Source: Streptomyces milbemycinicus (GTDB lineage: Bacteria > Actinomycetota > Actinomycetes > Streptomycetales > Streptomycetaceae). Taken from it: a DNA stretch of 64,000 nt. Made by a program: the position numbers and the translations under genes. Below are positions 1,184 to 21,033 of the stretch, one piece after another. The first letter of the stretch is position 1, and each line of letters opens with the position of its first letter. Under the pieces are notes generated by a model that had not been told where the DNA came from, made no database searches, and was given only the letters and a program-made list of their open reading frames with translations. The stretch covers positions 1 through 64,000 of the forward strand of contig NZ_MUNE01000251.1 in NCBI RefSeq assembly GCF_002154605.1, in the 5' to 3' direction.

Positions 1184-1231
1184 GGCCCCACCCCTCTCTC
1201 CCTCTCCCCACCCCGCGGACGTGGCGCACGA

Positions 1232-1388: not shown

Positions 1389-1398
1389 AGGACAGGAC

Positions 1399-4380: not shown

Positions 4381-4390
4381 GAGTCAGGCC

Positions 4391-5818: not shown

Positions 5819-6891
5819 TTGACGCCTGCCCGACCAGAAGATGGGGCGGATCGATCCCCGTGGTCGAGTAGCCGCCACGCGGTGAGGGCGAGCCTGGCCC
5901 GTGTCAGTCCGGTGGGCTCGGTGAGTTCGATGTCCAGGGTCTTTCCGAGCTGTTCGATGCGGCGGGCGACGCTGCTGTGGTGCAGGTGGAGAAGGTCAGC
6001 GGCGCGGCGCAGGGAGCCGGTGACGCAGTAGGCGTCCAGAGTCTCCAGATCTTCTGGGCTGCCGGCGATTCGGGCGATCCCTGCCACGTCGGCGTTGTTG
6101 CGCAAGGCGTCCTGAGGTATCTCGGCCAGGAGCGCCACTGCGCCCAAGTCGGTGTAGCGGATGACAGGTTCGCGCGGGTTGGTGAAGCGCAGGGCGGTGC
6201 GGGCTTCCTGCCAGGACTGGTCGGGGCTGTCGGCGGCGCCGATGCCCGCGCGTACGCCTGCCGGAAACCGCGCCCGGTCCACGGTGGTGGCCAGGATGAC
6301 GCCGACGTCGGCAAGTGGTGCCGCCTTCACCGGGCGGGCTGGGCAGATCAGGCCGCCGATCTGGTCGAGCGGGAGCTGCGCCCGTACGGCGACGACGCGG
6401 ACCGGCAGGTCGGCGGCGAAGCCCAGGAGGCGTAGCGCCCGTGCTCTGGCCGCCTCGTCGCTGTCGGAGCTGATCACCAGTTCGACGAGGGCGGGGTCGG
6501 CCATGGTGGTGCGGGCCGGGCCGTACCGCTCGACGGCCGCGGCGGTGGCGATGGCGAGCCGGTCCAGCAGCACTTCGTCGAGCGGGTCGGGCGGGCCCGG
6601 GCGTTCCAGCCACACCGTGCCGATCTCCTCCTCGTCGAGTGTGATCGGCGCCGTGGTGGACGCGGGTGACGGCGGGTTGGACGCTTCCGTGCCCTCGGGT
6701 GAGACGCGGATCGCCCGCCCCGTGCCGTGGAGCCGCATCCCGGCCACACACTCGGCCAGGCCCGCCGAGGCCCGGGCGAGCGCCGGGAGATCCACCCGTC
6801 GGCGCATCAGCGTGTCGTAGAACGCGACGATGCGGATCGCGCCGTCGACATACGAATCCAGTCCCGAGAGCCGTACGGCCAATGCCTCCAT
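5797..6891 (-). CDS. PucR/CdaR-family transcriptional regulator
   Basis: About 364 residues from ATG 6891 (MEALAVRLSGLDSYVDGAIRIVAFYD). Longer starts would run into the divergent esterase gene. The C-terminal PucR-type helix-turn-helix is clear: LDAYCVTGSLRRAADLLHLHHSSVARRIEQLGKTLDI. The N-terminal sensor part is not a recognisable PAS or GAF domain. Family members are activators or repressors of catabolic or morphological genes. Divergence from the esterase gene across an 85-base gap suggests it controls that gene. Confidence 0.8.
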   Translation of the reverse strand: MEALAVRLSGLDSYVDGAIRIVAFYDTLMRRRVDLPALARASAGLAECVAGMRLHGTGRAIRVSPEGTEASNPPSPASTTAPITLDEEEIGTVWLERPGPPDPLDEVLLDRLAIATAAAVERYGPARTTMADPALVELVISSDSDEAARARALRLLGFAADLPVRVVAVRAQLPLDQIGGLICPARPVKAAPLADVGVILATTVDRARFPAGVRAGIGAADSPDQSWQEARTALRFTNPREPVIRYTDLGAVALLAEIPQDALRNNADVAGIARIAGSPEDLETLDAYCVTGSLRRAADLLHLHHSSVARRIEQLGKTLDIELTEPTGLTRARLALTAWRLLDHGDRSAPSSGRAGVNQGYGTS

Positions 6892-6976
6892 GGCAAGACG
6901 GTAGCGCCGATCGGTGCGTGATCGGGGCAGGATGCGCGACGGATGGCGGCTGATCTCGAGCGCGCCGACGGTGAGG

Positions 6977-7882
6977 ATGGCCGACATGGATCCCGAACTC
7001 GAAGCATTCATTCCCCTTCTCCCGCACATCGACATGAACGACCCGGTCACCGCACGTAAGAACTTCGCCGAGCGTGCTGCCGCGCGGCCCGCGCCGGACA
7101 CCGCGAACATGGAGGTCGAGGACCGCACGGTGTCCGCCGATCCGGATGTGGCAGTGCGGGTCTACCGCCCGCACCAGGCCCAAGGCGCCATCGTCTGGCT
7201 GCACGGCGGCGGACTTGTCATGGGTGACCTGGACACCGAGCACCATTGGGCCGCCCATATCGCCGACGGTTCCGGCGCGGTGGTGATCTCGGTGGATTAC
7301 CGCCGGACCCCCGAGCATCGGTTCCCGGCCGCCCTGGACGACGCCTACGCCGTGCTGGCCTGGACGGCCGAGCACGCAGCCGAACTCGGTATCGGCCCGG
7401 AGCGGATCGCGGTCGGAGGGCACAGTGCCGGCGCGGGGCTTGCGGCCGCGGTGGCGTTGCGGGCGCGTGACCAGCAGGGGCCGCCGATCTGCTTCCAATT
7501 GCTCAACGAGCCCGGGCTCGACGACCGGCAGGAGACGTGGTCGCAGCGGCACTTCACCGATACGCCCTGGCAGGACCGCGACAAACTCGCCGCGGTGTGG
7601 CGGCACTACCTGGGCTCCCAGCCCGCCACCCCGTACGCCGCCCCGGCCCGGGCCACCGACCTGTCGGGCCTGCCACCGGCCTACATCGCCACCGCGGAGT
7701 TCGACCCGCTTCGCGACGAAGACATCGACTACGCGCTGCGCCTGCTGCAGGCCGGCGTGTCGGTCGAGCTGCACCAGTGGCCCGGCACCTTCCACGGGTC
7801 ACTGGCGATCCAGTCCGCCGAGGTGTCTCAGCGGCAGATCGCCACGCTCGTCGCCGCCCTGCGCCGTGCCCTGGCCGAGTGA
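6977..7882 (+). CDS. Alpha/beta hydrolase fold-3 esterase (HSL/acetyl-esterase family)
   Basis: 301 residues from ATG 6977, preceded by GGTGAGG; ATG 6986 is an alternative. Hormone-sensitive-lipase family motifs are complete: oxyanion motif WLHGGGLVMGD, nucleophile GGHSAGAGLAA, acid in EFDPLRDEDIDYA, and histidine in WPGTFHG. It should hydrolyse short-chain esters in the cytoplasm, substrate unknown. Thirteen bases separate it from the ABC pair downstream, so the three genes may be one operon. An esterase next to a siderophore-like transporter could act on an imported ester siderophore, which is inference. Confidence 0.86.
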   Translation: MADMDPELEAFIPLLPHIDMNDPVTARKNFAERAAARPAPDTANMEVEDRTVSADPDVAVRVYRPHQAQGAIVWLHGGGLVMGDLDTEHHWAAHIADGSGAVVISVDYRRTPEHRFPAALDDAYAVLAWTAEHAAELGIGPERIAVGGHSAGAGLAAAVALRARDQQGPPICFQLLNEPGLDDRQETWSQRHFTDTPWQDRDKLAAVWRHYLGSQPATPYAAPARATDLSGLPPAYIATAEFDPLRDEDIDYALRLLQAGVSVELHQWPGTFHGSLAIQSAEVSQRQIATLVAALRRALAE

Positions 7883-7894
7883 GGTCATGGGGCG

Positions 7895-9733
7895 ATGACC
7901 ACCACCGACCTTGCCCAGGCGAGGGAGCAGTCCGCGCCATCACCGGATGCCGATTCCGGGGCGGGACAAAGCGTGACACAGCTGCTGCGCCCTTACCTCC
8001 GGAGTTTCGCCGCCGTTGTCATCCTCCAGGTCATCGGCGCTGTCGCGGGTCTGGCACCGCTGCTGGCGGTCGTCGAACTGGGGCGCGTTCTGTTGCCGCC
8101 CGGCCCGGTCGATCACGGTCATGTCCGGATCGTCGTGATCGCGGGCGCGGTCGGCTTGTTCGTGCGACTGCTGTTCACGGCCGCGTCGTCGGCAATCGGG
8201 CATGTTCTCGACGGCCAGGTGCAACTGTCGTTTCGACGAGCTCTGGCCGCGCGGCTGGGGCGCGTGCCGATCGGCTGGTTCTCCCGGCGCCGGACCGGCG
8301 AGCTGGCAAAGGTGGTGGGGGAGGACGTCAGTGCCGTGCACCCGTTCATCGCCCACACCCCCGGCGAGCTCGTCTCCGCCTTCGTGGTACCGCTGGTGTC
8401 GCTGATCTACTTGTTCACCATCGACTGGCGGCTCACGCTGATCACGCTGATACCGGTGGTGCTCGCAGTGGCGCTGGTCCCGTTGATGATGACCCCGACC
8501 CGGCTGCGTGAACAGGAGGAGTTCGACGGGTCCTTGGGGCGGATTTCGAGTTCGGTCGTCGAGTTCGTGCAGGGTATCTCGGTGGTCAAGGTGTTCGGCG
8601 GATCCGGGCGCGCCCACCGTAAATTCCGCACGGCCGCAGACGATTTCGTCGGCGTCTTCTACCGGTGGGTGCGCGGTGTCTCCGGAATCGCCGCGGGGAT
8701 GCAACTGGTGCTGTCGCCGCCGTTCGTGCTGCTGGTCGTGCTGATCGGCGGTGCGGCTCTGATCACGACCGGTGGCATGGCCCCGGCCGATCTGCTGCCC
8801 TTCCTGCTGCTCGGACTGGGCCTGACCGCTCCGGTGGCGGCCCTCGGCCACGGTTTCGACGATATGCAGGCCGCCCGGCGTGCGGTCGGCCGGATCCGGG
8901 ACGTGCTCGAGGTGCAGTCGCTACCGGAGCCGGCGCACCCGGTCGCACCACAGGGTCACCGGGTGGAACTGCGTGACGTTCGATTCGGTTACGAAACCGA
9001 TCATGAGGTGCTGCGCGGGATCGACCTGGTGCTCGAGCCGGGGACGGTCACCGCGATCGTCGGGCCGTCGGGAAGCGGAAAGTCCACGCTGGTTCAGCTG
9101 TTGCCGCGGTTCTTCGACCCGACCCACGGTTCGGTCGTCCTGGGCGGTGTCGATCTGCGCGAACTCGGCAGCCGGGAGCTCTACCGGATGGTCTCCTTCG
9201 TCTTCCAGGACGTTCGCCTGCTCCGCGCGTCGGTCGCGGACAATATCGCGCTGGCAGTACCGCATGCCGACCTCGATGACGTGGTTCGCGTCGCCCGGCT
9301 GGCGAATATTCATGATCGAATTCTCGAGCTGCCACGCGGATACGAGTCGGTGATCGGTGAGGATGCCGGACTGTCGGGCGGCGAGGCACAGCGGATCTCG
9401 ATCGCACGCGCACTGCTCGCCGACGCGCCCGTTCTGGTGCTCGACGAGGCGACCGCCTTCGCGGACCCGCAGACCGAACAGGCGGTGCGCAGGGCCCTGG
9501 CGACGCTGGAGGGCGAGCGGACCATTGTGGTCATCGCCCATCGCTTGGAGACGGTCGCCGACGCCGACACCGTCGTCATGCTGGCGAGCGGGTCGATCGT
9601 CGAGCGCGGCAGGCCCGCCGAACTGCTGGCACAGAACGGAAAGTTCGCCGCGTTCTGGCAATCCCACCGATCGGCGGTCGCCGACGAGACCGAAACCCAC
9701 GGTGGCGTGCTGCAAGGAGACGAGCCCCGATGA
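7895..9733 (+). CDS. ABC transporter, fused permease and ATPase (IrtA/YbtP-like half)
   Basis: 612 residues. The N-terminal ABC-exporter-type membrane domain covers roughly residues 25-330, and the nucleotide-binding domain has Walker A GPSGSGKST, signature LSGGEAQRISIARALL and Walker B VLVLDEAT. It overlaps the next gene by the ATGA at 9730-9733, so the two halves are translationally coupled and probably heterodimerise. The closest general resemblance is to the exporter-fold siderophore importers (IrtAB, YbtPQ), but no siderophore-interacting reductase domain is present. Direction of transport cannot be decided from sequence. Codon use here seems less GC-biased than in neighbours, hinting at a separate origin. 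Confidence 0.85.
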   Translation: MTTTDLAQAREQSAPSPDADSGAGQSVTQLLRPYLRSFAAVVILQVIGAVAGLAPLLAVVELGRVLLPPGPVDHGHVRIVVIAGAVGLFVRLLFTAASSAIGHVLDGQVQLSFRRALAARLGRVPIGWFSRRRTGELAKVVGEDVSAVHPFIAHTPGELVSAFVVPLVSLIYLFTIDWRLTLITLIPVVLAVALVPLMMTPTRLREQEEFDGSLGRISSSVVEFVQGISVVKVFGGSGRAHRKFRTAADDFVGVFYRWVRGVSGIAAGMQLVLSPPFVLLVVLIGGAALITTGGMAPADLLPFLLLGLGLTAPVAALGHGFDDMQAARRAVGRIRDVLEVQSLPEPAHPVAPQGHRVELRDVRFGYETDHEVLRGIDLVLEPGTVTAIVGPSGSGKSTLVQLLPRFFDPTHGSVVLGGVDLRELGSRELYRMVSFVFQDVRLLRASVADNIALAVPHADLDDVVRVARLANIHDRILELPRGYESVIGEDAGLSGGEAQRISIARALLADAPVLVLDEATAFADPQTEQAVRRALATLEGERTIVVIAHRLETVADADTVVMLASGSIVERGRPAELLAQNGKFAAFWQSHRSAVADETETHGGVLQGDEPR

Positions 9734-11445
9734 TTCGAATGCTGCTGCGTGTGCTGGGCCGCGAGTACGCCCAGCCGATGCGTCGCACCGTGGCCCTGAT
9801 GACGACGACCGCGATAGCCGAGGGTCTGTCCTACGCACTGCTGGTTCCCGTGCTGCGGGCACTGCTCGGGGACACGCCCGGAGATGCCTGGCCCTGGCTG
9901 ATCGCGTTCGGGACCGCGGTCGCGGTCTACACGGCGCTGCGCTATATCAGTGATCTGTCCGGTTTCCGCGTCGGGTCCGCGCTGTTGCGTGGTATGTACC
10001 ACCGTCTCGGCGATCATCTGGCCCGATTGCCCATCGGCTGGTACAGCGCAGGCCGCCTCGGGGAAGTGTCCGTCCTGGCCGGCCGAGGCGTCCTGCAGGC
10101 GATGGCCGTGATCGCGCATCTGCTGGCACCGTTCATCTCCGCCTGTGTGACTCCCCTGACGATCGTTGTCGTGATGCTTGCCTTCCAATGGCAAATGGGG
10201 CTGGCGGCGTTGGTTGCCGCACCGATCGTGGCGGCGATCCAGATCTGGACGGGACGCTCGATGGCCGCAGCCGATGCGGAGCGCTCCGAACGCGACCAAG
10301 AGGCCACCGGGCGGGTCATCGAATACCTCCAGGCCCAGCCGGTGCTGCGAGCCGGCGGCCGGACCGCCGAACGCTTCCGGTTGCTCGACGACTCGCTGCA
10401 GGAAGTCCAGCGCGCGTCCCGCCGTTCCACGCTGGCGTCACTGCCTGGTGCATTGGGTTTGACGCTCGCGGTGCAGGCGATGTTCACCGTGTTGTTGGTC
10501 CTGGGCGCCTACCTCGCGCTCGGCGGGAATATCGGTGCCGCAGAGATTTTGACGATCCTGGTGCTGGCCGCCCGCTGCGCGGATCCGCTGCTGTCGCTGT
10601 CGGATATCGGCGGCAAACTCCGCGGCGCGCGTTCCGTGCTGGCGAGACTCGACACGGTATTGCGCACCGAGCCGCTACCGGAAGCTTCCGAACCGATCCA
10701 GCCGGTACGCCATGACCTGGAGTTCGAGTCCGTCGCATTCCAGCATGGCGGCCGCACGGTGATCGACAACGTGTCGTTGTCCGTGCCGGAGGGACAGCGG
10801 CTCGCCGTTGTCGGACCGTCGGGTGCGGGCAAGAGCACATTGCTGCAGTTGCTCGCGCGCTTCTACGACGTGGACGCGGGCGCGGTGCACGTGGGGGGTG
10901 TGGACGTGCGCGCGATCAACACTGAGGTGTTGATGGCGCAGATCGCCATTGTCTTCCAGGATGTCTATCTCTTCGACGGCACGATCGAGGAGAACGTGCG
11001 TCTGGGCCGTCCCGACGCCGACGAAGCCGAGGTACGGGCGGCGGCGACCGCGGCGCGGTTGGACGACGTGATCGAGCGACTGCCCGGCGGATGGGCGACG
11101 AATGTCGGCGAGGGCGGGGCACTGCTGTCGGGTGGTGAGCGCCAGCGTGTCGCGATCGCGCGAGCGCTGCTGAAGAATGCGCCCATCGTGCTGCTGGACG
11201 AGGTGACCTCCGCACTGGACCCGGTGAACGAGGCGGCCGTCCACGAGGGCATCGAGCGCCTGATGGCAGGCCGGACTGTGGTGATGGTGGCGCACCGGAT
11301 GCGGACCGTCCGGCGCGCCGATCGCGTCGTCTTTCTGGACGGCGGCCGGATCGTGGAGGAAGGCAGCCACGACGAGCTGCTGCGCCGCGGTGGACGCTAC
11401 GCCGACTTCTGGAATATTTCCCTGACACCGGCAGCGAGTGAATGA
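9730..11445 (+). CDS. ABC transporter, fused permease and ATPase (IrtB/YbtQ-like half)
   Basis: 571 residues, second half of the coupled pair. Membrane domain about 1-330; ATPase domain with GPSGAGKST, LSGGERQRVAIARALL and IVLLDEVTSALDP. Both halves keep apparently functional ATPase motifs. Its start codon overlaps the stop of the preceding gene. It ends 10 bases from the convergent GlxA-type gene. Drug or lipid export remains possible for this fold. Confidence 0.85.
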   Translation: MIRMLLRVLGREYAQPMRRTVALMTTTAIAEGLSYALLVPVLRALLGDTPGDAWPWLIAFGTAVAVYTALRYISDLSGFRVGSALLRGMYHRLGDHLARLPIGWYSAGRLGEVSVLAGRGVLQAMAVIAHLLAPFISACVTPLTIVVVMLAFQWQMGLAALVAAPIVAAIQIWTGRSMAAADAERSERDQEATGRVIEYLQAQPVLRAGGRTAERFRLLDDSLQEVQRASRRSTLASLPGALGLTLAVQAMFTVLLVLGAYLALGGNIGAAEILTILVLAARCADPLLSLSDIGGKLRGARSVLARLDTVLRTEPLPEASEPIQPVRHDLEFESVAFQHGGRTVIDNVSLSVPEGQRLAVVGPSGAGKSTLLQLLARFYDVDAGAVHVGGVDVRAINTEVLMAQIAIVFQDVYLFDGTIEENVRLGRPDADEAEVRAAATAARLDDVIERLPGGWATNVGEGGALLSGGERQRVAIARALLKNAPIVLLDEVTSALDPVNEAAVHEGIERLMAGRTVVMVAHRMRTVRRADRVVFLDGGRIVEEGSHDELLRRGGRYADFWNISLTPAASE

Positions 11446-11454
11446 GTCGGCGCC

Positions 11455-12429
11455 TCAGCTGCTCGGTTGCGTGCCGCTGGTGTGACGGCCGAAGGAGCGG
11501 CGGTAGGCGGCCGGCGTGGTGTGCACCATGGCGTGGAAGCGTCTGCGGAGGTTGGCTGCTGAGGACAGGCCGACCCTGGTGGCGATCGTCTCCACGGGGA
11601 GGTCCGTCTCCTCCAGGAGGGCGCGAGCCGTCATGACACGCTGCTGGAGCACCCACCGGCCGGGGCTGGTGCCGAGCTGGTCGGCGAATCTCCGGGCAAG
11701 GGTTCGCGGTGAGATGTTGGCCTGTGCGGCGAGGTCGCTGGTGGTGAAGGGCTCGTGCAGCCGCTCGGTGGCCCAGTCGAGGATGGGGGCCAGGGACTCG
11801 GGCGGGCGGTCGGCGCGGGGTGGAGCGGCATACTGCAGCTGCCCGCCCTCGCGATGCGGCGGCATGACCATGTGCCGGGCGATCTGCGCGGCGTGGGCCG
11901 CGCCGTGGTCGGTTCGGGCCAGGTGCAGGCACAGGTCGATGCCGGCGGCAGTGCCCGCGCTGGTGGCGATGTCGCCCAGGTCGATGTAGAGGGTGTCGGG
12001 CTCGACCTGGATGTCGGGGAAGCGGGCGGCGAGTTCGGCGACCATCCGCCAGTGGGTTGTCGCCCTGCGGTGGTCCAGCAGTCCCGCCTGGGCGAGGAGG
12101 AAGGCGCCGGAGCAGATCGCGGCGATGCGGGCGCCGCGCCGGTGGGCCTGCCGCACCGCGTCGATCACCGCGGGCGGGGCGGGCTGTTCGCCGTGCTGCC
12201 AGCCGGGGATCACCACCGTGTCCGCGGTCCCGAGGTCCGGCAGTCCGCGGCTCACCGCCATGTCGTAGCCGGCCAGGGTCGGTACGGCGCCCGGGTGCTC
12301 TGTGCACACGGCGAACTCGTAGCGAGTGGGTAGACCTGGTCGGCTCATGCCGAAGACCTCGGCGGCGCACGCCAGCTCGAACGTGGACTGCGGCGGCAGG
12401 ACCAGGGCGACCACCCGGTGAACACTCAT
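11455..12429 (-). CDS. GlxA-family regulator (DJ-1/PfpI domain plus AraC HTH)
   Basis: 324 residues from ATG 12429 (MSVHRVVALVLPPQSTFELACAAEVF). The first half is a DJ-1/PfpI fold (DTVVIPGWQ, ICSGAFLLAQAGLLDHRRATTHW); the second half is an AraC-type double helix-turn-helix (RFADQLGTSPGRWVLQQRVMTARALLEETDLPVETIATRVGLSSAANLRRRFH). In Streptomyces such proteins regulate nitrogen, stress or secondary metabolism. It is divergent from the cupin gene across 70 bases. Confidence 0.9.
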   Translation of the reverse strand: MSVHRVVALVLPPQSTFELACAAEVFGMSRPGLPTRYEFAVCTEHPGAVPTLAGYDMAVSRGLPDLGTADTVVIPGWQHGEQPAPPAVIDAVRQAHRRGARIAAICSGAFLLAQAGLLDHRRATTHWRMVAELAARFPDIQVEPDTLYIDLGDIATSAGTAAGIDLCLHLARTDHGAAHAAQIARHMVMPPHREGGQLQYAAPPRADRPPESLAPILDWATERLHEPFTTSDLAAQANISPRTLARRFADQLGTSPGRWVLQQRVMTARALLEETDLPVETIATRVGLSSAANLRRRFHAMVHTTPAAYRRSFGRHTSGTQPSS

Positions 12430-12478
12430 GGCAGAAAAGTATCCGCCGGCGTCATTCCTGACACTGGGCCGAGGCAGG

Positions 12479-12493
12479 ATCGTCCGCGACGAT
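12479..12493. promoter_or_regulatory. Inverted repeat ATCGTC-CGC-GACGAT in the GlxA/cupin intergenic region
   Basis: Perfect 6-bp arms around CGC end 6 bases before the cupin start codon, where a Shine-Dalgarno sequence would normally sit. It is a candidate binding site for the divergent GlxA-type regulator or an RNA hairpin limiting translation. Confidence 0.4.
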
Positions 12494-12499
12494 TGGCTC

Positions 12500-12823
12500 A
12501 TGCCGAAAGAGTCCAGTGATGTTCAGATCCTGCACGTTGACGAGGTCGAACCGGTGGAGGTCGTTCCCGGGATCGTTCGGCGGCGCCTGCCGGCCACGGA
12601 GTGGGCGCGCGGGTGGATGTACGACTTCGCTCCGGGGACGGAGTGGCCCGAGGTGGATGTGCACGAGGGCGAGGAACGCTATTACGTGGTGTCGGGGGAA
12701 TTCATCGACCGAGGGCAGCGCCTCGGGCCGGGCAGTTATGTGGTGTTCGCGCCCGGCAGCACGCACCGCCCGCGTACGGAGACCGGCGCACGCATGATCG
12801 GAATCAGCATCCTCCCCCGCTAG
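12500..12823 (+). CDS. Small cupin-domain protein
   Basis: 107 residues from ATG 12500 (MPKESSDVQILHVDEVEPVEVVPG). A single cupin barrel with metal-ligand-like residues in DVHEGEERYYVVSGEF and a distal FAPGSTHRPRT. Similar proteins are dioxygenase-like or small-molecule binding. No convincing ribosome site is visible. It is paired with the divergent GlxA-type regulator. The last 20 bases overlap the 3' end of the convergent MFS gene. Confidence 0.75.
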   Translation: MPKESSDVQILHVDEVEPVEVVPGIVRRRLPATEWARGWMYDFAPGTEWPEVDVHEGEERYYVVSGEFIDRGQRLGPGSYVVFAPGSTHRPRTETGARMIGISILPR

Positions 12824-14111
12824 CCGGCTCGCCGTCGCGCGCCGACCGCAGGGTGCCGGCAGTGCTGGATCTTGGCGCGCCACCCTGGTGGGGCTGATCG
12901 CCGGTATCGCCGCGGCTTTCGCCGTGGTCGGCGGATCCCTCGTGCGTGGCGGGTGTCCACCGGATGCGCGTACCGCACAGGGACACCACGGCCGCCGAAG
13001 CGGCCACGACACCCAGGCCCCACACCAGACTGCTGGAGTTCGCCACGAAGCCGATGACCGGGGGACCGGCCAGCAGGCCCGTCGTGCCCATGGCGGCGAC
13101 CAGGGCCAGAGCGTCCGGGCCCTGCTTGGCCGCCGCGACATAGACGCAAGGGGTCACGGCCGCGATGCCGAGGCCGACGCAGGAGAACCCGATCAGGGCC
13201 GGAATCACACCGCCACTCAGCAGGGCGAGGGCCAGCCCCGTCCCGGCCAGGGCGCTGCCGAGGACGACGACCCGCCCGTCGCCCCAGCGCTCGCGCCAGC
13301 CGTCGGCGAACAGCCGGGCCAGCACCATCATGCCCGAGACGACGGCGATCCCCAGGGGCGCCAGCTGTGCCGACGCCTTGACGACATCCGTCATATAGAG
13401 GGCCGACCAGTCGTTGATGGCGCCCTCGGTGACGGTGCCGAAGACCATGGCGCAGCACATCCACAGCGTCATACGGGTCGGCAGGGACCATCCGCTGCGG
13501 CTCTTCGTCTCGTCCCGCTTCTCCTCGGCGGCCTCGTCCTCCGTCAGCAGCCCGGTCCGGGCGTACGCGAACAGGAGCAGTAGGACGACGGCGGCCATGC
13601 CGAAGTGCACGGCGACCGTCGAGGTCACCGCGTTGACGCCGGAGGCCAGGAGGGCGGCGAGCAGCGAGCCGCCGCTGAACGTCGCGTGCAGTTTGGCCAT
13701 GGCGTTGCGCTTGTGCCGGACTTCGAGTGCGGCGCCCTGTGCGTTCATGGCGACGTTCAGACAGCCCACGAGCACTCCGTCGCAGCACACGACGGCCAGG
13801 GCGACGGGGTAGTTCGGCGCCACGGCCAGGGCGATGAGTACCAGCGTCAGGCCCAGGGCCGACAGGAGTGCGAGGCGCTGTGAGCCCAGCCGCCTCATCA
13901 GCACCGACACAAGAGGGAACGACACACTCGCGCCGACCCCCGCGGCCATCAGGAGAAAGCCCACCTCCGCGGCCGTCAGGCCGAGATCGGCCTTGAGGGC
14001 GGGGATGCGCGAGGCCCAGGTGGCGTACTGGAAACCGAGGGAGCAGAACAGCGCGGCGATCGCCAGTTGGCTCCGGTAGAAGGGATCTCGGACCCGCGGT
14101 ATATGGATCAA
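12804..14111 (-). CDS. MFS transporter, last gene of the PhyH operon
   Basis: 435 residues, 12 predicted membrane segments, resembling the YbjJ-like branch of the major facilitator superfamily (FCSLGFQYATWASRIPALKADLGLTAAEVGFLL). A central loop (EDEAAEEKRDETKSRSG) separates the halves. The start is probably TTG 14111, overlapping the GNAT stop as TTGA; no ATG lies nearby. As the final gene of an operon of small-molecule enzymes it is a good candidate for product export and self-protection. Confidence 0.82.
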   Translation of the reverse strand: MIHIPRVRDPFYRSQLAIAALFCSLGFQYATWASRIPALKADLGLTAAEVGFLLMAAGVGASVSFPLVSVLMRRLGSQRLALLSALGLTLVLIALAVAPNYPVALAVVCCDGVLVGCLNVAMNAQGAALEVRHKRNAMAKLHATFSGGSLLAALLASGVNAVTSTVAVHFGMAAVVLLLLFAYARTGLLTEDEAAEEKRDETKSRSGWSLPTRMTLWMCCAMVFGTVTEGAINDWSALYMTDVVKASAQLAPLGIAVVSGMMVLARLFADGWRERWGDGRVVVLGSALAGTGLALALLSGGVIPALIGFSCVGLGIAAVTPCVYVAAAKQGPDALALVAAMGTTGLLAGPPVIGFVANSSSLVWGLGVVAASAAVVSLCGTRIRWTPATHEGSADHGESRGDTGDQPHQGGAPRSSTAGTLRSARDGEPASGGGC

Positions 14112-14650
14112 GCCTGCTCCTCCTGCGATGACGTGCCATGAGCGGACACGCCGGACGGCACCGCCCTCGACATGTAGATGACGTCCGGGCCGTAGCCGTC
14201 CGGGGGGACGACCTCCTGGTGGGCGGTGAAGCCACGCGCCGACCAGTACGTCGCGCTGCCCCCGACGGCCACCAGCGAGATCTGCTCGTACCCATGTGCC
14301 CTGGCCGATGCGGTGAGGTGGCGCAGCAGGCGCCGTCCCAGCCCTTTGCGCCGGAAGTTCTCCGCGATGACCAGGTCGTGCAGATGCAGATTGGTGGACG
14401 GGTACGCGGTCTCCTCAGGCCGTTCCAGGTCCGGGTACCGGTACATCGGATAGGGCAGCGCCAGTGCATAGCCCACGAGCCGGGGGCCCACCTCCAGCGC
14501 GCGGCAGGTGGCCGGCGACACCCGCGCGCGGGATTCGAGCGCCACCCGTCCCTCGGACAGGCCGAGGCCGGTGTAGGCGTGGGACTCCAGCGCCGCGATG
14601 CCGTCCCAGTCGTCGTCCGAGATGTGGCGGATGCGCACCTCGTCGTTCAT
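14108..14650 (-). CDS. GNAT-family N-acetyltransferase
   Basis: 180 residues from ATG 14650 (MNDEVRIRHISDDDWDGIAALESHAY). The acetyl-CoA pyrophosphate loop is visible: LVIAENFRRKGLGRRLLRHLTASARAHG. It overlaps the upstream decarboxylase gene by ATGA and the MFS gene by TTGA. In context it could acetylate the amine made by the decarboxylase, either as a biosynthetic step or as self-protection. Confidence 0.87.
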   Translation of the reverse strand: MNDEVRIRHISDDDWDGIAALESHAYTGLGLSEGRVALESRARVSPATCRALEVGPRLVGYALALPYPMYRYPDLERPEETAYPSTNLHLHDLVIAENFRRKGLGRRLLRHLTASARAHGYEQISLVAVGGSATYWSARGFTAHQEVVPPDGYGPDVIYMSRAVPSGVSAHGTSSQEEQA

Positions 14651-15885
14651 CCGCCACCCGTCTTCCCGGACCCGCCCGTGGCGCCGCCGTCGATGCAGGT
14701 GTAGGGGAGCGGGCCGAAGCCGTTGAAGCCCTGGGTCGTATAGCTGATCGCGTACGCCCCGCAGGACAGCACCCAGACCGGGTCGCCCGACGCCAGCGCC
14801 TCGGGCACCTGGACCAGGCCGTCCTCGTGGGAGTAGGCGTCGTCGCTGTCGCAGGTGGGTCCGGCCACGACGGCGGGCACATGGCGGGTGCCGGGGCCGC
14901 CGTGGGTGGGGAAGACGAGCGGGTACTGCAACTCGTCCATCTCGTACAGGCCGTTGAACTTTCCGCAGCTCAGATACAGCCAGTACTGGCGCCGCCCGTC
15001 GGGTCCCTGCCGCGCGGACAGCCGGGACACATGGGCCCGGATGGCCCCTTGTCCGGCGACGAGATAGCGGCCCGGCTCCACGACGAAGCCGAGGTGGTGG
15101 CCGCCGATGGTGCGCAGGTGGGCCATTCCCTCCCGGATGACGGCGAACAACTTGTCGATCGGGGGATCGAGCGGTCTGCCGTGTTTGTCGAGATACCCCG
15201 GGACAGGGAGGCCGCCGCCGAGGTTGATGTGGTCCAGGGCGATCCCGCGGCGGTCCAGGGCGGCCAGGACGTCCGCGAGGCGTTCGAAGGCGTCGCGCCA
15301 GGCCTCGGGTGTCATCTGCTGCGAGCCGACGTGTACGGAGAGGCCGGAGGGCACCAGCCCCAGCTTCCGCGCCGTTTCCAGAATGGTCACCGCGTCGGCG
15401 GTCGAGCATCCGTACTTGCCGCTCAGCTCCCAGAGCGCTCCCCGGGTGTCGGTGGAGAGCCTGCAGAACACCCGGGCGCCGGGGGCGTGTTCGGCGATGG
15501 CCGCCACGTCCTCCAGGCTGTCGGTCGCGAAGTCCCTGATGCCGAGCCGATGGGCGTCGGCGATGTTCCGGTCGGACTTCACGGTGTTGCCGTAGTGCAC
15601 TCTGCCGATCGGCACACCCGCCCGCAGCGCCTGTTCCATCTCCGGGACGCTTGCCGCGTCGACCCCGGCGCCCGCCCCGGCCAGCCGGGCCAGCACCTCG
15701 TCGACCGGGCAGGCCTTCATCGCGAAGCGGACGGCGACCCCGGGCAACTCCCGGAGCAGGGACTCGTAGCGCTCCTCGATTCCGGTGAGGTCGAAGACGA
15801 TCCGGTCGTCGGCGGTGGCCGCGAGCGCGGCGGACAAGGGTGTGCCCGCTACAGGCTCTATGCCTGCTGTTCCTTCGTGCGTCAT
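14647..15885 (-). CDS. Fold-type III PLP decarboxylase (ornithine/lysine/diaminopimelate type)
   Basis: 412 residues from ATG 15885, overlapping the upstream stop as ATGA. The PLP lysine is K57 (RFAMKACP); phosphate-binding and active-site motifs are HVGSQ (185-189), GGG (223-225), EPGR (270-273), GPTCDSDD (Cys345) and the C-terminal GFNGFGPLPY. CDSDD replaces the common CDGxD of ornithine decarboxylases and diaminopimelate decarboxylases. It should remove the alpha-carboxyl of a basic, possibly hydroxylated, amino acid to give an amine. Its position between an unknown protein and an acetyltransferase argues against a housekeeping polyamine role. Confidence 0.88.
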   Translation of the reverse strand: MTHEGTAGIEPVAGTPLSAALAATADDRIVFDLTGIEERYESLLRELPGVAVRFAMKACPVDEVLARLAGAGAGVDAASVPEMEQALRAGVPIGRVHYGNTVKSDRNIADAHRLGIRDFATDSLEDVAAIAEHAPGARVFCRLSTDTRGALWELSGKYGCSTADAVTILETARKLGLVPSGLSVHVGSQQMTPEAWRDAFERLADVLAALDRRGIALDHINLGGGLPVPGYLDKHGRPLDPPIDKLFAVIREGMAHLRTIGGHHLGFVVEPGRYLVAGQGAIRAHVSRLSARQGPDGRRQYWLYLSCGKFNGLYEMDELQYPLVFPTHGGPGTRHVPAVVAGPTCDSDDAYSHEDGLVQVPEALASGDPVWVLSCGAYAISYTTQGFNGFGPLPYTCIDGGATGGSGKTGGG

Positions 15886-17207
15886 CGTGACCTTCGACCC
15901 GGATGTCCCGGAGCCTGCACGAGGGCGGTGTCGCGGGCCGCCCGTATCAGCGCCTCCCACGTCTCGATCAGCAGGGCGAAGTCGGCGATGTCGCTCTGCG
16001 CCTCGTCGAGCAGACGCTCGCGGCGCGACGCCAGGAAGGCGGCGAAGGTGGCGTATCTGCCGCCGAGCTTCCGGTACGCGGCCTCGATGGTGTCGAGGCG
16101 CTGGACGTTCTCCGCCCGGTCGAGCAGGGTGCTCTTCCTGGCCAGCTCGGCGATGGCGGACGCCCGCACCTGACCTTGACCGTCGAGGAGCGTTTCGCCG
16201 GCCTCGGCCATCTCGTCGTAGAGGAAGTTGAAGTAGAGCATCGACAGGAAGAACTTGGCGAACCGCAGCTGGTAGGCCATGAACCCCGGGTCGGTGCGGC
16301 GTTCCCCGGTGTAGAAGTTCACGATGTGGCGGTTGTGCAGTACGCCGGGCAGCGCGGCGGCGTGGACCAGGTGGATGAGGAAGTAGTCGCTGCCGATGGT
16401 GTCGGTCGCGGGCGGCAGCGGCACTCGTTCATGCACCTGGTGGAAGCTGATGTTGCACATGTCCACGTGCATGGGGTCGACGACGGTCAAGGTCGTCCGG
16501 TCTCCGGTGAACGGGCCGGTCCTGGGCCCTTGGAAGGACTCCTCGACGAGTTCCCGCTTCTGCTCGTCCGACCAGTGGCCGGGCGCCCACAGGCCGACCA
16601 CGTCGTAGTAGACGTCCGGGTCGAGCCGGCGGATCTCGTCGATGTCCACGGACAGCTCACCCAGGAAGGAGCCGGCCACCATCGCCACCCGCTTGTGGGT
16701 GTTTTCGGGAGCGAGCACCGTCTCACCGACACCGTGCGCCGCGTCGGCCGCACGCTTGCCGAGCGACAGAAGCTCCTGGTGGACGGGGAACACGGTCTCG
16801 CCGCGCAGCACCTGGTAGCGGCTGTCGGAGTCCCTGCGGTGGACGGATTCGCATCCGAGGGCCACGGCGATCAGGAACGCGCGGTTGGTACAGGCGCCGT
16901 AGGAGAGCCCGGCCGGAAGCATGAGGTCGAGCAGCAGCTCATGCTTGGTGTGCTCGGTCCGGTGGATCACCCGGCGCAGAAAGTCGCGCTGCTCCGCCTC
17001 GTCGAGGTGGCGGACGAAAACGCGCGGCAGCCCGTGCGCGGAGCGCAGGGCCCGTGCGTGTTCCCGATACGCGTCGGAGGAGTCCAGGACGAGCAGATGC
17101 ACCTCGACGTCGAAGTGCGCGGCCGCGTAGGCGGCCTCCTCACCGATGGCGGTGACCATCGCAGGGCACGCCCGGTTGGTGGGGAGTGTCAGGCAGATGC
17201 GTCGCAC
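15882..17207 (-). CDS. Uncharacterised protein, possible GT-A-like fold (may be the family named DUF6271)
   Basis: 441 residues from GTG 17207 (VRRICLTLPTNRACPAMVTAIG). This start gives a 19-base overlap with the PhyH gene. No signal peptide or membrane segment. The N-terminus alternates strands and helices as in GT-A glycosyltransferases (EVHLLVLDSSD near 35-45), followed by NRAFLIAVALGCESVHRRDSDSR, where D126-S-D128 looks like a metal-binding DxD. Other recognisable stretches are NTHKRVAMVAGSFLGELSVDI, WAPGHWSDEQKRELVEESF and VDPMHVDMCNISFHQVHE. I recall similar actinobacterial proteins annotated as DUF6271 but cannot confirm that here. A nucleotide-sugar or nucleotidyl transferase activity is inference only. 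Confidence 0.7.
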   Translation of the reverse strand: MRRICLTLPTNRACPAMVTAIGEEAAYAAAHFDVEVHLLVLDSSDAYREHARALRSAHGLPRVFVRHLDEAEQRDFLRRVIHRTEHTKHELLLDLMLPAGLSYGACTNRAFLIAVALGCESVHRRDSDSRYQVLRGETVFPVHQELLSLGKRAADAAHGVGETVLAPENTHKRVAMVAGSFLGELSVDIDEIRRLDPDVYYDVVGLWAPGHWSDEQKRELVEESFQGPRTGPFTGDRTTLTVVDPMHVDMCNISFHQVHERVPLPPATDTIGSDYFLIHLVHAAALPGVLHNRHIVNFYTGERRTDPGFMAYQLRFAKFFLSMLYFNFLYDEMAEAGETLLDGQGQVRASAIAELARKSTLLDRAENVQRLDTIEAAYRKLGGRYATFAAFLASRRERLLDEAQSDIADFALLIETWEALIRAARDTALVQAPGHPGRRSR

Positions 17208-18262
17208 GCTACTTCCCCGCCGCTTCGGTCGCCTTGGTTGACGTTTTTCCCGTCCCACGAGGTGAGCCCGAGCAGCTTGGCGCCCAGGTCGCTCAGCGTG
17301 GCGGTGTCGTACCTGAGGGCTTCGGGCTTGTCGGCGTCGCCGAGCAGGGTGCCGTTCCAGGTCGGCGTGGTGAGGTGGCGCCATGACTCGACCCGTGAAC
17401 GCCGCAGCTCCTCATGGGATTCGAGGGCGGGCATCATCGCGAGGTACTGGACCGCCCGCACACCGTTCTGCGAGGTGTTGGGCGCCACTCCATGGGCCAG
17501 CAGCCCGTTCCAGATGAGCAGGTCCCCGGCCTCGAGTTGCGGCCGTACGACGGGCATCTCGGCCCGGTCGATCTTGGGCCGGATCGGATCGCGGTCGGCC
17601 GGCTGGAGCGTCCGCCACTGGTCGAACCGGTGGAACAACTCGGGGCAGCACTGGAAGCCGCCGAGCTCCGGCTCGGTGTCATGGAGGGCGATGATGCCCT
17701 GGACCCGCTGCGGCAGCACACTGAGCGTGGTGTCGACATCCCAGTGCAGTGTGATGTCGAACCCCCGCTCCGTGGGGGCGATCAGGGCCCGGTCGCGGTT
17801 CTTGACGTTCGGCGGGTTCAGGTTCAGCCGGTCCAGGCTGACCCACAGTTCCTCGCAGTCCCATACGTCCACGAACGCGTCGTAGACCCGCTGCGTCTGG
17901 CGGCTGTCCCAGATGAGCTGGTGGTGGTACGCCTCGACGAACCCGTAGATGTGCAGCTCACGGTCCAGGTCGGAGCGGTACTCGCGGTCCTGGTACCAGG
18001 TGTCCGGGCGGCCGGGGTCGAGCCCCTGGAAGTCCCAGGTGAAGTCCAGTAACCGGCGCGCGGCCGAGGCGGGGATCGCCTGCTTCACCACGACGTAGCC
18101 GTAGGTCTGCCAGAAGGCGAAGTCGTCCTCGGACAACACGCGCAGCTGGTGGGTCTTGGTGAGGTCCCGCAGCTGAGTCCGGGCGAGGTATGTCTCGCCG
18201 TCCGAGCTGAAGTAGGGGACGTCCGAGGGGGATCGGTACAAGTAATGGTCGGGCTTTGGCAT
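17189..18262 (-). CDS. PhyH-family Fe(II)/2-oxoglutarate dioxygenase, first gene of the five-gene operon; contains a TTA codon
   Basis: 357 residues from ATG 18262, with GGAG 6 bases upstream. Facial-triad residues are visible: H173-W-D175 (ITLHWDVDTT) and distal H257 (NGLLAHGVAP), with R269 (NGVRAVQY) to bind 2-oxoglutarate. PhyH enzymes hydroxylate or otherwise oxidise small molecules, often amino acids, in natural-product pathways. Codon 71 (18050-18052 on the plus strand) is TTA, which Streptomyces translates only when the bldA tRNA is made. As the first gene of a chain of overlapping reading frames, it would make the whole operon sensitive to bldA. Confidence 0.88.
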   Translation of the reverse strand: MPKPDHYLYRSPSDVPYFSSDGETYLARTQLRDLTKTHQLRVLSEDDFAFWQTYGYVVVKQAIPASAARRLLDFTWDFQGLDPGRPDTWYQDREYRSDLDRELHIYGFVEAYHHQLIWDSRQTQRVYDAFVDVWDCEELWVSLDRLNLNPPNVKNRDRALIAPTERGFDITLHWDVDTTLSVLPQRVQGIIALHDTEPELGGFQCCPELFHRFDQWRTLQPADRDPIRPKIDRAEMPVVRPQLEAGDLLIWNGLLAHGVAPNTSQNGVRAVQYLAMMPALESHEELRRSRVESWRHLTTPTWNGTLLGDADKPEALRYDTATLSDLGAKLLGLTSWDGKNVNQGDRSGGEVACDASA

Positions 18263-18409
18263 GCAGTGCTCCAAAACTGAAAACTCTCCGTCGCAGACCG
18301 CGAACAGTGCCGTGTCCGCCGGGCCTGCTGATGACGAAGACAGGACGGCGTCAGATGCCGGAGCGTAGTGTCCGCTGCGCTCCTTGGTGGACTGACGCCT
18401 TCATAAAAA

Positions 18410-18421
18410 TGGACTAGACCA
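18410..18421. promoter_or_regulatory. DasR-responsive-element-like site 1
   Basis: TGGACTAGACCA matches 11 of 12 core positions of the known DasR element (TGGTCTAGACCA). It lies just downstream of the minus-strand TTGACA, inside the candidate promoter of the PhyH operon. DasR is the GntR-type repressor released by glucosamine-6-phosphate derived from N-acetylglucosamine. Confidence 0.6.
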
Positions 18422-18518
18422 TATACGTTGTCAACAAGGGAATCCCCTAGTGCTGTTGGCCGAAGCCCACCGCGTGGACCGCTCCTTGACACCGGTGATT
18501 CGACTGGGCGAGTATCCG

Positions 18519-18532
18519 TTGGTCTGTACCAA
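18519..18532. promoter_or_regulatory. DasR-responsive-element-like site 2
   Basis: TTGGTCTGTACCAA is a near-palindrome matching 10 of 12 core positions of the DasR element. It sits immediately downstream of the plus-strand candidate promoter of the GH3 gene, a position expected for repression. A beta-N-acetylhexosaminidase gene is a natural DasR target. Confidence 0.6.
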
Positions 18533-18599
18533 AGATCATCGATGTCGTGGGCGGCGTCGGTGTTATCGGTGTGTTGGCGCTCTTCGAAAGGCGTGATCG

Positions 18600-20111
18600 A
18601 TGTCCACCAGCAAGCCCGGCACGGACCTGCGACGACTCGCACTCTCCGTCCTGCAACCGGGGTTCGTGGGCACGGAGGCGCCGGAGTGGATCCTGCGTGA
18701 CATCGGTAACGGCCTGGCGTCCGTCGTGATCTTTTCACGCAATATCGAATCCCCGGACCAGCTCGCCCGGCTGACCGCGCAACTCCGCGCCGAGAACCCG
18801 TCGTTGATCGTAGCGATCGACGAGGAGGCCGGTGATGTCACCCGGATCGAGTCCGCGACCGGCTCCACCCGTCCCGGCAATCTCGCCCTCGGGACGGTGG
18901 ACGACACCGAGCTGACCGAGTCCGTCGCCGCCGATCTGGGCCGCCAACTGCGTGGAGCGGGCATCAGCCTGAACTTCGCGCCCACCGTGGACGTCAACTC
19001 CAACCCGGACAACCCCATCATCGGGGTCAGATCCTTCGGGGCGGACGCCAAAACGGTGTCCCGGCACGCCGCCGCGTGGATCAAAGGACTCCAGTCGGCC
19101 GGGGTCGCCGCCTGCGCCAAACACTTCCCCGGCCATGGGGACGTCGCCGTCGACTCCCACCACGGCCTGCCCAGTTACGACGCCGACCTCGACCGGATCG
19201 CCGCACAGGCCCTGCCGCCGTTCCGCGCCGCGCTGGACGCGGGGGTCCGCGCGGTCATGAGCGGCCACCTGCTGGTGCCCGCCTACGACCTGGATCTGCC
19301 CGCCACCCTCAGCCGCCGAATCCTCGACGGCCTGCTGCGCCAGGAGCTCGGATTCGACGGGCTGATCGTCACCGACGCCATCGAGATGGGGGCAGTCGCC
19401 GACCGCTACGGGATCGACGCGGCCGCGGTGCGCGCCGTCGCCGCCGGGGCCGACGCCGTCTGCGTCGGCGGGGAGAGCGCCGAGGAGGCCACCGCCCAAC
19501 TGCTCGCCACCGCCCTCGTCGACGCCGTGGCCGCCGGGGAACTCGCCGAGGAGCGGCTGGCGGAGGCGTCGGAGCGGGTCCGGGCGTTCGCCGAGTGGTC
19601 GACGGAGCTGGGCCGGTCCGCCCCGGCCGGTGCGGTCGACGGCGCCATCGGCTTCGTCGCCGCCCGCCGGGCCATCCGTATGACCGGCTCCGTAGCGGGG
19701 TCGCTGCCCCTGGCCGCGCCGCCGCATGTGGTGGAGCTGGTGCCCGCCACCAACCTGGCCATCGGCAAGGAGACCCCCTGGGGCGTCGCCGCACCGCTGA
19801 GCGAACGGCTTCCCGGCACGACCTCCGTCCGGATCCACCCGCAGGAGTTGCGGACGCGGGCAGCCACTCTGGAGGCGTCCGCGCTGACCCCCGCCTCCGG
19901 ACGTCCGCTGGTGGTCGTCGTCAGGGATGCTTCCCGGCACCCGTGGATGGGCGGCGCCCTGACGGACCTCGTCACCGCGCGCCCGGACGCGATCGTCGTG
20001 GAGATGGGCCTGCCGGGCGCCACCGCCCCCGGCGCGGTGCACATCTCCACCCATGGCGCGACCACCGCGTCCGGGGTGGCCGCGGCGGAGGTCCTTGCGG
20101 GGACGAGGTAG
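18600..20111 (+). CDS. Glycoside hydrolase family 3, NagZ-like beta-N-acetylhexosaminidase
   Basis: 503 residues. The GH3 signature of the NagZ branch is present: KHFPGHGDVAVDSHHGLP (K174-H175 and the catalytic D185-S-H187 loop), and the nucleophile is D259 in IVTDAIEMGAV. A second, non-catalytic domain extends from about 340 to the end, longer than single-domain NagZ. No signal peptide, so it is probably cytoplasmic, releasing GlcNAc from imported muropeptides or chitin fragments, or acting as a phosphorylase as some His/Asp-loop members do. The two DasR-like sites upstream fit a role in amino-sugar recycling. Confidence 0.88.
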   Translation: MSTSKPGTDLRRLALSVLQPGFVGTEAPEWILRDIGNGLASVVIFSRNIESPDQLARLTAQLRAENPSLIVAIDEEAGDVTRIESATGSTRPGNLALGTVDDTELTESVAADLGRQLRGAGISLNFAPTVDVNSNPDNPIIGVRSFGADAKTVSRHAAAWIKGLQSAGVAACAKHFPGHGDVAVDSHHGLPSYDADLDRIAAQALPPFRAALDAGVRAVMSGHLLVPAYDLDLPATLSRRILDGLLRQELGFDGLIVTDAIEMGAVADRYGIDAAAVRAVAAGADAVCVGGESAEEATAQLLATALVDAVAAGELAEERLAEASERVRAFAEWSTELGRSAPAGAVDGAIGFVAARRAIRMTGSVAGSLPLAAPPHVVELVPATNLAIGKETPWGVAAPLSERLPGTTSVRIHPQELRTRAATLEASALTPASGRPLVVVVRDASRHPWMGGALTDLVTARPDAIVVEMGLPGATAPGAVHISTHGATTASGVAAAEVLAGTR

Positions 20112-20142
20112 GGCCCCGCGCGCCACGGCCCGTACGCGGGCG

Positions 20143-21033
20143 CTACGAGGACTTGCCCCGGGCCGATGTGTTGATGAGCTCGTCGGCGACCCACCGTGCC
20201 ACGTTGACGGGGTAGGGCGTCGACAGTCCGAGGACGATGTGCAGGAAGCCGGCGTCGATCGCCTCGCCGATCGCGTCCCGGGTGGCGCCGGGCCGGTCGT
20301 ACGAGACGGGCAGGTGGATCGAGCGGGTGATCGAGGCGGGGTCGCGACCGATCTCGGCGCAGTAGCGGTCCAGCAGCGCACTGCGGCTCACGACGTCGTC
20401 GATGTCGCCTCCGGGGATGTTCCACAGATCGGCGTGTTCGGCGGCCACGCGCAGTGTCGGGGCCGAGCGTCCGCCGATGAGGATCGGCGGATGGGGGCGC
20501 TGGACGGGTTTCGGGTTGCCGAACGCCCCGGTGAGCTGGTGGTAGGTGCCGTCGAAGTCGAACGGCTCCTGCTCGGTCCACAGCCGCCGGATCACCGTAC
20601 AGGCCTCGGCGAGGCTCCCCACGGCGTGCGCGGTGTCATGGAAGGGCAGGCCGTGTGCCGCGTACTCGCGGTGGGCCGCGGGAGGGCTGGGGCGTGAGCC
20701 GACGCCGATGCCGAAGTCGAGCCGTCCACCGGAGACGATGTCCACGGTCGTGGCGATCTTGGCCAGCATCGCGGGCGGCCGGAACCGGTTGCTGGTCACC
20801 AGCAGGCCGAGCCGTAGCCGTCGGGTGTGGGCGGCGAGGGCCGAGAGCAGTGTCCAGCCCTCGTACGTCGGTCCGTTCGGGTCGCCGCCGATCGGCATGA
20901 GGTGATCGAACAACCAGGCGTGCTCGATCTCCGGGATGGTGTCCGCCTCGCACCAGACCCGCAGGACGTCGTGGTAGTCGACCTGCATGGGGGCGGTCAT
21001 GATGCCGAAACGGGGTCGGGGTGTATGCGGCAT
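20143..21033 (-). CDS. LLM-class F420-dependent oxidoreductase
   Basis: 296 residues from ATG 21033 (MPHTPRPRFGIMTAPMQVDYHDVLRVW). Luciferase-like barrel with typical segments: AWLFDHLMPIGGDPNGPTYEGWTLLSALAAHTRRLRLGLLVTSN, TVDIVSGGRLDFGIGVGSRPS and PHPPILIGGRSAPTLRVAAEHADLWNIPG. Such enzymes use reduced F420 or FMN on unknown small molecules. It lies 25 bases downstream of the aldo/keto reductase on the same strand and is probably co-transcribed with it under the TetR-type regulator. Confidence 0.88.
   Translation of the reverse strand: MPHTPRPRFGIMTAPMQVDYHDVLRVWCEADTIPEIEHAWLFDHLMPIGGDPNGPTYEGWTLLSALAAHTRRLRLGLLVTSNRFRPPAMLAKIATTVDIVSGGRLDFGIGVGSRPSPPAAHREYAAHGLPFHDTAHAVGSLAEACTVIRRLWTEQEPFDFDGTYHQLTGAFGNPKPVQRPHPPILIGGRSAPTLRVAAEHADLWNIPGGDIDDVVSRSALLDRYCAEIGRDPASITRSIHLPVSYDRPGATRDAIGEAIDAGFLHIVLGLSTPYPVNVARWVADELINTSARGKSS

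Follow-up and report, generated by a model that had tools for sequence, protein, structure and literature searches.

What does a compact operon of five genes in Streptomyces milbemycinicus make, and what signal switches it on? The operon lies on the minus strand of a 64,000-nucleotide stretch of contig NZ_MUNE01000251.1 (hereafter the window; G+C content about 67–74%) and encodes, in order, a PhyH-family oxygenase, a protein of the domain family DUF6271, a fold-type III decarboxylase dependent on pyridoxal phosphate (PLP), a GNAT-family N-acetyltransferase and a transporter of the major facilitator superfamily (MFS). Computation gave us its gene content, its synteny, the predicted GT-A fold of the DUF6271 protein and the sequence of an upstream operator, and on this basis we propose that this real and widespread operon is most likely a biosynthetic one, controlled by the regulator DasR and containing a new kind of GT-A enzyme. 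As to what it produces, we lean towards a pathway, controlled by DasR, whose exported product is a hydroxylated, glycosylated and N-acylated amine.

Five overlapping genes conserved as a unit

All five reading frames are intact, and successive genes overlap by 19, 4, 4 and 4 bases. An earlier note on this DNA had described a compact, one-direction operon with every junction overlapping, and its coordinates, frames, family labels and overlaps agree with ours. The first gene (17189–18262, minus strand, ATG start) encodes a PhyH-family Fe(II)/2-oxoglutarate (2OG) oxygenase of 357 residues (PF05721, E = 6.6e-10), and the second (15882–17207, minus strand, GTG start) the DUF6271 protein of 441 residues (PF19787, E = 2.2e-227), a predicted GT-A glycosyltransferase. 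These are followed by a PLP decarboxylase of the ODC/LysA superfamily (14647–15885, minus strand, ATG start, 412 residues; Orn_Arg_deC_N, PF02784, E = 2.1e-41), the GNAT protein (14108–14650, minus strand, ATG start, 180 residues; Acetyltransf_1, PF00583, E = 4.1e-11) and the MFS transporter, a presumed exporter (12804–14111, minus strand, TTG start, 435 residues; MFS_1, PF07690, E = 5e-27). A Pfam scan of the five proteins found no ketosynthase, adenylation, condensation or carrier domain.

Conservation of this gene order, which the earlier note had proposed to look for, is extensive. In a sample of 392 Streptomyces genomes that includes the source genome, DUF6271 is present in 123, the source genome among them. 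Our census covers all DUF6271 loci outside the source genome (123 loci in 122 genomes, the window itself not being counted, and the control loci L292–L295 standing outside the 123); a gene was scored as present on a tblastn match with E ≤ 1e-8 over at least 25% of the query, whatever the integrity of its frame. All five genes occur in the window's order at 76 of the 123 census loci, in one of which (L077) DUF6271 is split into two pieces. At 34 further loci a condensation-domain protein replaces the decarboxylase and the GNAT protein (C-type), nine loci are partial, five of them ending at a contig edge (L233, L269, L287, L288, L289), and four are remote DUF6271 homologues with no PhyH match; the 11 census rows classed as "other" comprise the nine partial loci and two of these remote homologues, the other two having returned no match. 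PhyH and DUF6271 thus form the constant pair (119/123 loci, the four exceptions all being remote homologues). Counting the window, the five-gene operon occurs in 77 of 392 genomes, or about one in five. Twelve DUF6271 matches (G111, which is L052, G016 and ten others) carry one in-frame TGA within the matched stretch.

A search based on the decarboxylase in a species-level collection, whose species overlap with those of the census, gave a similar picture. Among the best 80 of 137 loci, which were the ones inspected, the five genes are complete at 71, with 69 in the window's order and two with the decarboxylase in front; the other nine comprise three loci cut short by the contig (L150, L157, L174) and six in which the decarboxylase has another setting. 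The 71 complete loci span eight genera: Streptomyces, Kitasatospora, Embleya, Actinacidiphila, Streptantibioticus, Actinocrispum, Kibdelosporangium and Actinospica. The decarboxylase at L098 (Streptomyces sp. NBS 14/10) is 93% identical to the window's. A phylum-wide sample gave 5 of 396 genomes and is of little use for judging spread, because all five belong to one genus. Synteny confined to one or two strains, or scattered homologues assigned to primary polyamine metabolism, had been named in the earlier note as signs against a cluster, and we found neither. In the Kitasatospora loci L153, L154 and L161 (~450–11300), which lack DUF6271, the decarboxylase comes after a transketolase/E1-like pair and another, distinct PhyH gene; L161 also has a ketosynthase and a carrier protein upstream.

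The open-access literature, under the terms we searched, yielded no matching description of the operon, of DUF6271 or of PhyH-transketolase clusters, and within that scope the earlier designation of the cluster as undescribed holds. The cluster related to glucosamine (GlcN) in the accessible text of PMC6520443 is a different one.

A predicted DasR operator in front of the operon

The operon is separated from a divergent gene of glycoside hydrolase family 3 (GH3) by a gap of 337 bases. On the PhyH strand of this gap lies a putative promoter and operator (18410–18434, minus strand), in which a −35-like TTGACA (18429–18434) is followed after 7 bases by TGGTCTAGTCCA (18410–18421), the core of a DasR-responsive element (dre). 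The parts of PMC4398421 consulted give the DasR consensus as A(G/C)TGGTCTAGACCA(G/C)T and report that a site with the core TGGTCTAGTCCA is bound by DasR in vitro in S. coelicolor. N-acetylglucosamine 6-phosphate (GlcNAc-6P) and GlcN-6P release DasR from dre, according to the sections seen of PMC12370203 and PMC6167110.

The exact composite (TTGACA, 7–8 bases, TGGTCTAGTCCA) occurs once in the source genome. Across 199 genomes it occurs 31 times, never more than once per genome, compared with 0 for the reversed-pattern control. Of these occurrences, 27 are at the operon, adjoining DUF6271, three are in the gap between DasR-like and DasA-like genes (L292, L293, L295), and one precedes a GH18-like (chitinase-like) gene, whose match of 26.8 bits is below the Pfam cut-off of 29.6.

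We next counted composites with up to two mismatches within 1.2 kb of PhyH in 119 loci from which repeats of the C-terminal 200 PhyH residues had been removed. The composite is present at 90, made up of 71/95 decarboxylase-containing (DC-type), 13/13 C-type and 6/11 unassigned loci, with spacers of 8 bases (69 loci), 7 bases (20) or 9 bases (1); elsewhere it occurs 20 more times in 4.79 million strand-bases. Within the census, 46 of 79 DC-type loci have it within 1.2 kb, 9 more have it upstream of a co-directional GH3 gene, 7 have a dre only and 17 have neither, two DC-type loci in this count having less than 400 bases of upstream sequence. The composite is found at 32 of 34 C-type loci, the other two having a dre only, and at five of six other PhyH-DUF6271 loci, with none at the sixth. 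Several C-type dre cores differ from TGGTCTAGTCCA. Block shuffling gave 0/119 composites in 100 runs. When the bare 12-mer was sought upstream of PhyH with one mismatch allowed, the mean under mononucleotide shuffling was 0.04 of 119 loci.

At L143 a GntR/UTRA protein adjoins dasABC-like genes, and the source genome encodes a regulator that is 94% identical to it. From this context, we take the latter protein to be DasR, and we predict that it binds the operator and controls the operon. The small RNA scr5239 has the same dre core, and we considered whether the operator could be part of it; there was no Rfam match in window positions 12000–21000 up to E = 0.5, and among seven loci scanned scr5239 was found in L143 (15877–16032), downstream of the operon.

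A das and nag neighbourhood

The divergent gene (18600–20111, plus strand) encodes a DasD-like GH3 protein resembling beta-N-acetylhexosaminidases (PF00933, E = 6.9e-75), which scores 195.8 bits against NF003740, below its 207-bit cut-off. Both this gene and the operator lie outside the stretch delimited by the earlier note, which also missed the C-type clusters. A GH3 match lies within 1.6 kb upstream of PhyH at 54 of the 76 full loci, co-directional at 34 and divergent, as in the window, at 20. GH3 proteins adjoining PhyH are closer to the window's (median identity 66%, n = 102) than are those adjoining DasC-like genes (56%, n = 8), so the former seem to be a dedicated DasD-like paralogue. 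DasD itself is described as an N-acetylglucosaminidase acting on imported chitobiose (PMC12370203, PMC6167110, in the parts consulted).

Matches to das transporter genes occur at 22 of the 76 full loci; because the DasA, DasB and DasC matches are loose (27–46% where values are given), these may include other sugar ABC transporters. At L143, L129 and L137 the order is a GntR/UTRA regulator, a solute-binding protein, two permeases (dasABC-like), GH3, the five genes and nagB, and L055 has the same order as L137. NagB of L137 and L129 scores above the NCBIfam cut-offs.

Such neighbours, together with a composite operator common to three dasR/dasA gaps and a GH18-like gene, could also be expected if the operon served aminosugar catabolism or detoxification, modifying and then expelling or salvaging a toxic by-product of chitin or N-acetylglucosamine (GlcNAc) breakdown. 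We consider this unlikely: an oxygenase, a GT-A protein, an N-acetyltransferase and an MFS transporter suggest building rather than breaking, the sister type carries a condensation-domain protein with carrier- and ligase-like genes, and DUF6271 is found in under a third of the sampled genomes (123/392), whereas the great majority of Streptomyces are reported to have DasABC (PMC12370203, in the part consulted).

DUF6271 as a predicted GT-A transferase

An AlphaFold2 model of the DUF6271 protein, built from a 66-sequence alignment, is confident (predicted local distance difference test, pLDDT, 91.6; predicted TM-score, pTM, 0.92) and adopts a GT-A fold. The comparison with GT-A folds suggested in the earlier note therefore came out positive, and this fold, together with a conserved DxD motif, is in keeping with the note's guess that the then unassigned protein adds a sugar. 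Foldseek returned 21 matches at E ≤ 0.001, headed by the mutase MtdL of glycosyltransferase family 75 (GT75; E = 1.2e-6) and including PcManGT, GlfT2, mannosyl-3-phosphoglycerate synthase, LH3, COLGALT1 and chondroitin polymerase. In structural comparison, MtdL is the closest solved structure (Z 23.7, rmsd 3.5, 313 residues, 13% identity), followed by rice UAM2 (Z 20.5, rmsd 3.8, 302 residues) and mannosyl-3-phosphoglycerate synthase (Z 16.9, rmsd 4.0, 282 residues).

This relation to GT75 is one of fold only, because none of the sequence methods gave a link: phmmer found no solved relative, a profile search returned chance matches only (TRAF6 and a phosphatase), and hhalign of the 66-sequence alignment against a two-sequence MtdL-like alignment gave no meaningful match. 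PF19787 is the only Pfam family matched at E ≤ 0.001; the RGP family (PF03214) is not matched.

Residues D126-S127-D128 (the DxD motif), D274 and H291 are invariant in all 66 relatives and are kept in 8 of 8 sequences of a set that includes an Apilactobacillus homologue at 19% identity. H291 is followed by R293 in all 66 sequences, R293 not being kept in the Apilactobacillus homologue. In MtdL, Mn2+ is bound through the DxD motif and His287, with Arg159 the proposed nucleophile and Asp260 the proposed base (PMC9937993, in the part consulted). From residue order and secondary structure, we read H291 and R293 as the counterparts of His287 and Arg289 of MtdL.

Is the protein then a GT75-type mutase that provides a rearranged NDP-sugar, furanosyl or other, for a separate enzyme to transfer? 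Its closest solved structures, MtdL and UAM2, and a DxD motif with a His resembling that of the MtdL metal site would fit such a role, but there is no invariant Arg between D128 and D249 in the 66 sequences, a region that probably corresponds to the one in which GT75 has its nucleophile (Arg159 of MtdL). In addition, PF03214 is not matched and no separate glycosyltransferase is present among the five proteins. A mutase thus appears quite improbable, and we read DUF6271 instead as a GT-A transferase that shares a GT75-like metal site, does not glycosylate itself and would transfer a sugar from an NDP-sugar.

The remote homologue in Apilactobacillus kunkeei is carried on plasmid OX335123.1 (L007, 7471–17869), where its neighbours are two ATP-grasp genes, a methyltransferase, a class IV aminotransferase, two annotated transketolase subunits, a carrier protein and a class II aminoacyl-tRNA synthetase-like gene, with locus tags that read pLPX. 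The accessible text of PMC9648514 characterises pLPX by its surface protein and does not mention the DUF6271 cluster.

The oxygenase and the decarboxylase

Fe(II)/2OG oxygenases use an HxD...H facial triad and an Arg that binds 2OG. In the PhyH protein, H173-W-D175, H257 and R269 are invariant across 46 aligned sequences, and H173, D175 and H257 are the presumed iron ligands, with R269 the presumed 2OG-binding residue. The PhyH model is of moderate confidence (pLDDT 70.3) and resembles many 2OG oxygenases, among them proline hydroxylase H11, EctD and GriE. Because many such enzymes tie at Z 16–18 and the model is moderate, the fold search did not narrow the substrate.

The decarboxylase is nearest, among solved proteins, to lysine/ornithine decarboxylases (LODC 2plj, E = 1.6e-40). 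Its K57 (the PLP lysine) and C345-D346 (of the GPTCD motif) align to LODC and ornithine decarboxylase (ODC) and are at least 98% conserved in 81 sequences. The C-terminal match to PF00278 is below the cut-off. In ODC, Asp332 holds the distal amino group of the substrate. The segment bearing this residue is absent here: the alignments to LODC and ODC show a three-residue gap, and the sequence G-K309-F-N-G-L, at least 98% conserved in the 81 sequences, stands in its place. With this segment absent, a plain diamine route looks less likely and a modified or acidic substrate more so, and a free basic amino acid is not an obvious candidate.

The earlier note had envisaged an amine pathway from a basic amino acid; one conserved operon of enzymes and a transporter supports the pathway, while the missing Asp332 segment weakens the basic substrate. 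For the same reason a polyamine-type route, in which lysine, ornithine or arginine would be turned into an acetylated hydroxy-diamine and DUF6271 would be secondary, strikes us as very doubtful. It would account for the resemblance to lysine/ornithine decarboxylases and for the GNAT gene that follows, but not for a constant core that consists of DUF6271 and PhyH rather than the decarboxylase.

A sister branch with a condensation-domain protein

In 13 C-type loci inspected with our own gene calls, a gene belonging to a single ligase-like cluster lies divergent from PhyH in 12, a carrier-like gene is present in 6 and a phosphopantetheinyl transferase (PPTase)-like gene in 5. In S. clavuligerus, the ligase-like protein scores 105.6 bits against the amino acid:acyl-carrier-protein ligase family NF005479 (cut-off 357) and the carrier-like protein 18.7 against PF00550 (cut-off 20.8); the PPTase there is annotated. 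S. clavuligerus also has a second PhyH-DUF6271 pair (L006, 10937–13332), without decarboxylase, condensation gene or dre-like site.

A DUF6271 tree was built from the window, two outgroups and those 109 loci whose DUF6271 stretch is long and free of stops. The C-type sequences form one clade (32 C-type and one unassigned, support 1.0), with a single change of type compared with at least 21 under shuffled labels. Because the C-type loci form a single clade and retain PhyH-DUF6271, it seems that the same conserved core has acquired two alternative finishing sets.

Proposed pathway

We infer the following scheme, including the order of its steps, its substrates and its product. When GlcNAc-6P or GlcN-6P rises through chitin or cell-wall turnover, DasR would come off the dre, which immediately follows the −35-like element, and transcription of the operon would proceed. 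The PhyH oxygenase would then hydroxylate a small acceptor, most likely an amino acid, and DUF6271, as a metal-dependent GT-A transferase, would attach a sugar from an NDP-sugar, for which UDP-GlcNAc is our first guess. Decarboxylation of the amino acid by the PLP enzyme would yield an amine, which the GNAT protein would acylate and the MFS protein would export. In the sister type, the PhyH-DUF6271 block is kept, and the decarboxylase and GNAT give way to a condensation-domain protein, usually accompanied by an amino-acid:carrier-ligase-like gene. We also weighed allosamidin, nagstatin and glycosylation of hydroxylysine as in collagen, but saw no evidence in their favour and adopted none of them.

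Several observations weigh against this scheme. The exact composite is present in 27 of the 65 DUF6271 genomes among the 199 and absent from 38, and within 3.5 kb neither composite nor dre is found at 17 of 79 DC-type and one of six other loci. Only the 12-mer core of the window's site fits DasR, the bases outside it departing from the full 16-base consensus. In the source genome, the bare 12-mer shows no enrichment when one mismatch is allowed (21 sites compared with 29 for the reversed control), and it was dropped as genome-wide evidence in favour of the composite; the operator claim thus rests on position, −35 context and conservation. GT-A folds also include proteins that are not glycosyltransferases, the link to das genes could also mean a catabolic role, and the GNAT and MFS proteins could serve self-protection instead of the final steps.

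If the scheme is correct, the chitin/GlcNAc signal has, in a large share of the genus Streptomyces, a dedicated small molecule as its output and acts beyond general antibiotic control alone. The scheme assigns DUF6271, a domain of unknown function, an activity that can be tested, and it points to a likely inducer for a small cluster that has no PKS or NRPS genes. The operon should be turned on by GlcNAc or in a dasR mutant, and the missing product can then be sought directly. More tentatively, and as a possibility we would not call probable, DUF6271 may found a new GT-A glycosyltransferase family that attaches a sugar derived from GlcNAc to an amino acid hydroxylated by PhyH; the operon would then make a class of chitin-induced secreted metabolites in about one-fifth of Streptomyces, with a second branch condensing a carrier-bound amino acid onto the same core.

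Neighbouring genes in the window

A cupin (ChrR-like) gene (12428–12823) runs convergently towards the MFS gene, with a 20-base overlap at the end of the latter. Further away are two neighbouring ABC exporter genes for MsbA-like half transporters, overlapping by 4 bases (7895–11445), and an alpha-L-fucosidase-like protein with carbohydrate-binding modules and a GH28 protein (1363–5818), which suggest use of plant polysaccharides.

Comparison with known systems

DUF6271 shares a GT-A fold over most of its chain with MtdL of the A201A pathway and with the plant UAM/RGP proteins of GT75, and its DxD, His and H-x-R motif resemble the MtdL metal site; it differs in its low structural identity to MtdL (13%), in lacking a PF03214 match and in having no evident Arg nucleophile. 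The mannosyl- and glucosyl-3-phosphoglycerate synthases likewise share the GT-A fold (Z ~14–17) but are only 9–16% identical, and sequence searches found no match to them. With LODC (2plj, 5gjm) and ODC, the window's decarboxylase has in common the fold-type III architecture, the PLP lysine and the GPTCD motif, but not the Asp332 segment or a PF00278 match above the cut-off.

The S. clavuligerus megaplasmid cluster (PhyH-DUF6271-condensation-MFS-transketolase) resembles the operon in its PhyH-DUF6271 pair, MFS gene and dre-like site. It differs in having no decarboxylase or GNAT match, and it also contains a PPTase, two transketolase subunits, and carrier-like and ligase-like genes that score below curated cut-offs. 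Finally, whereas the operon's predicted dre precedes enzymes without a known role in chitin use, unlike those of the das, nag and chi genes of the DasR regulon, the operon shares with three dasR/dasA gaps both the dre core and its spacing from TTGACA.

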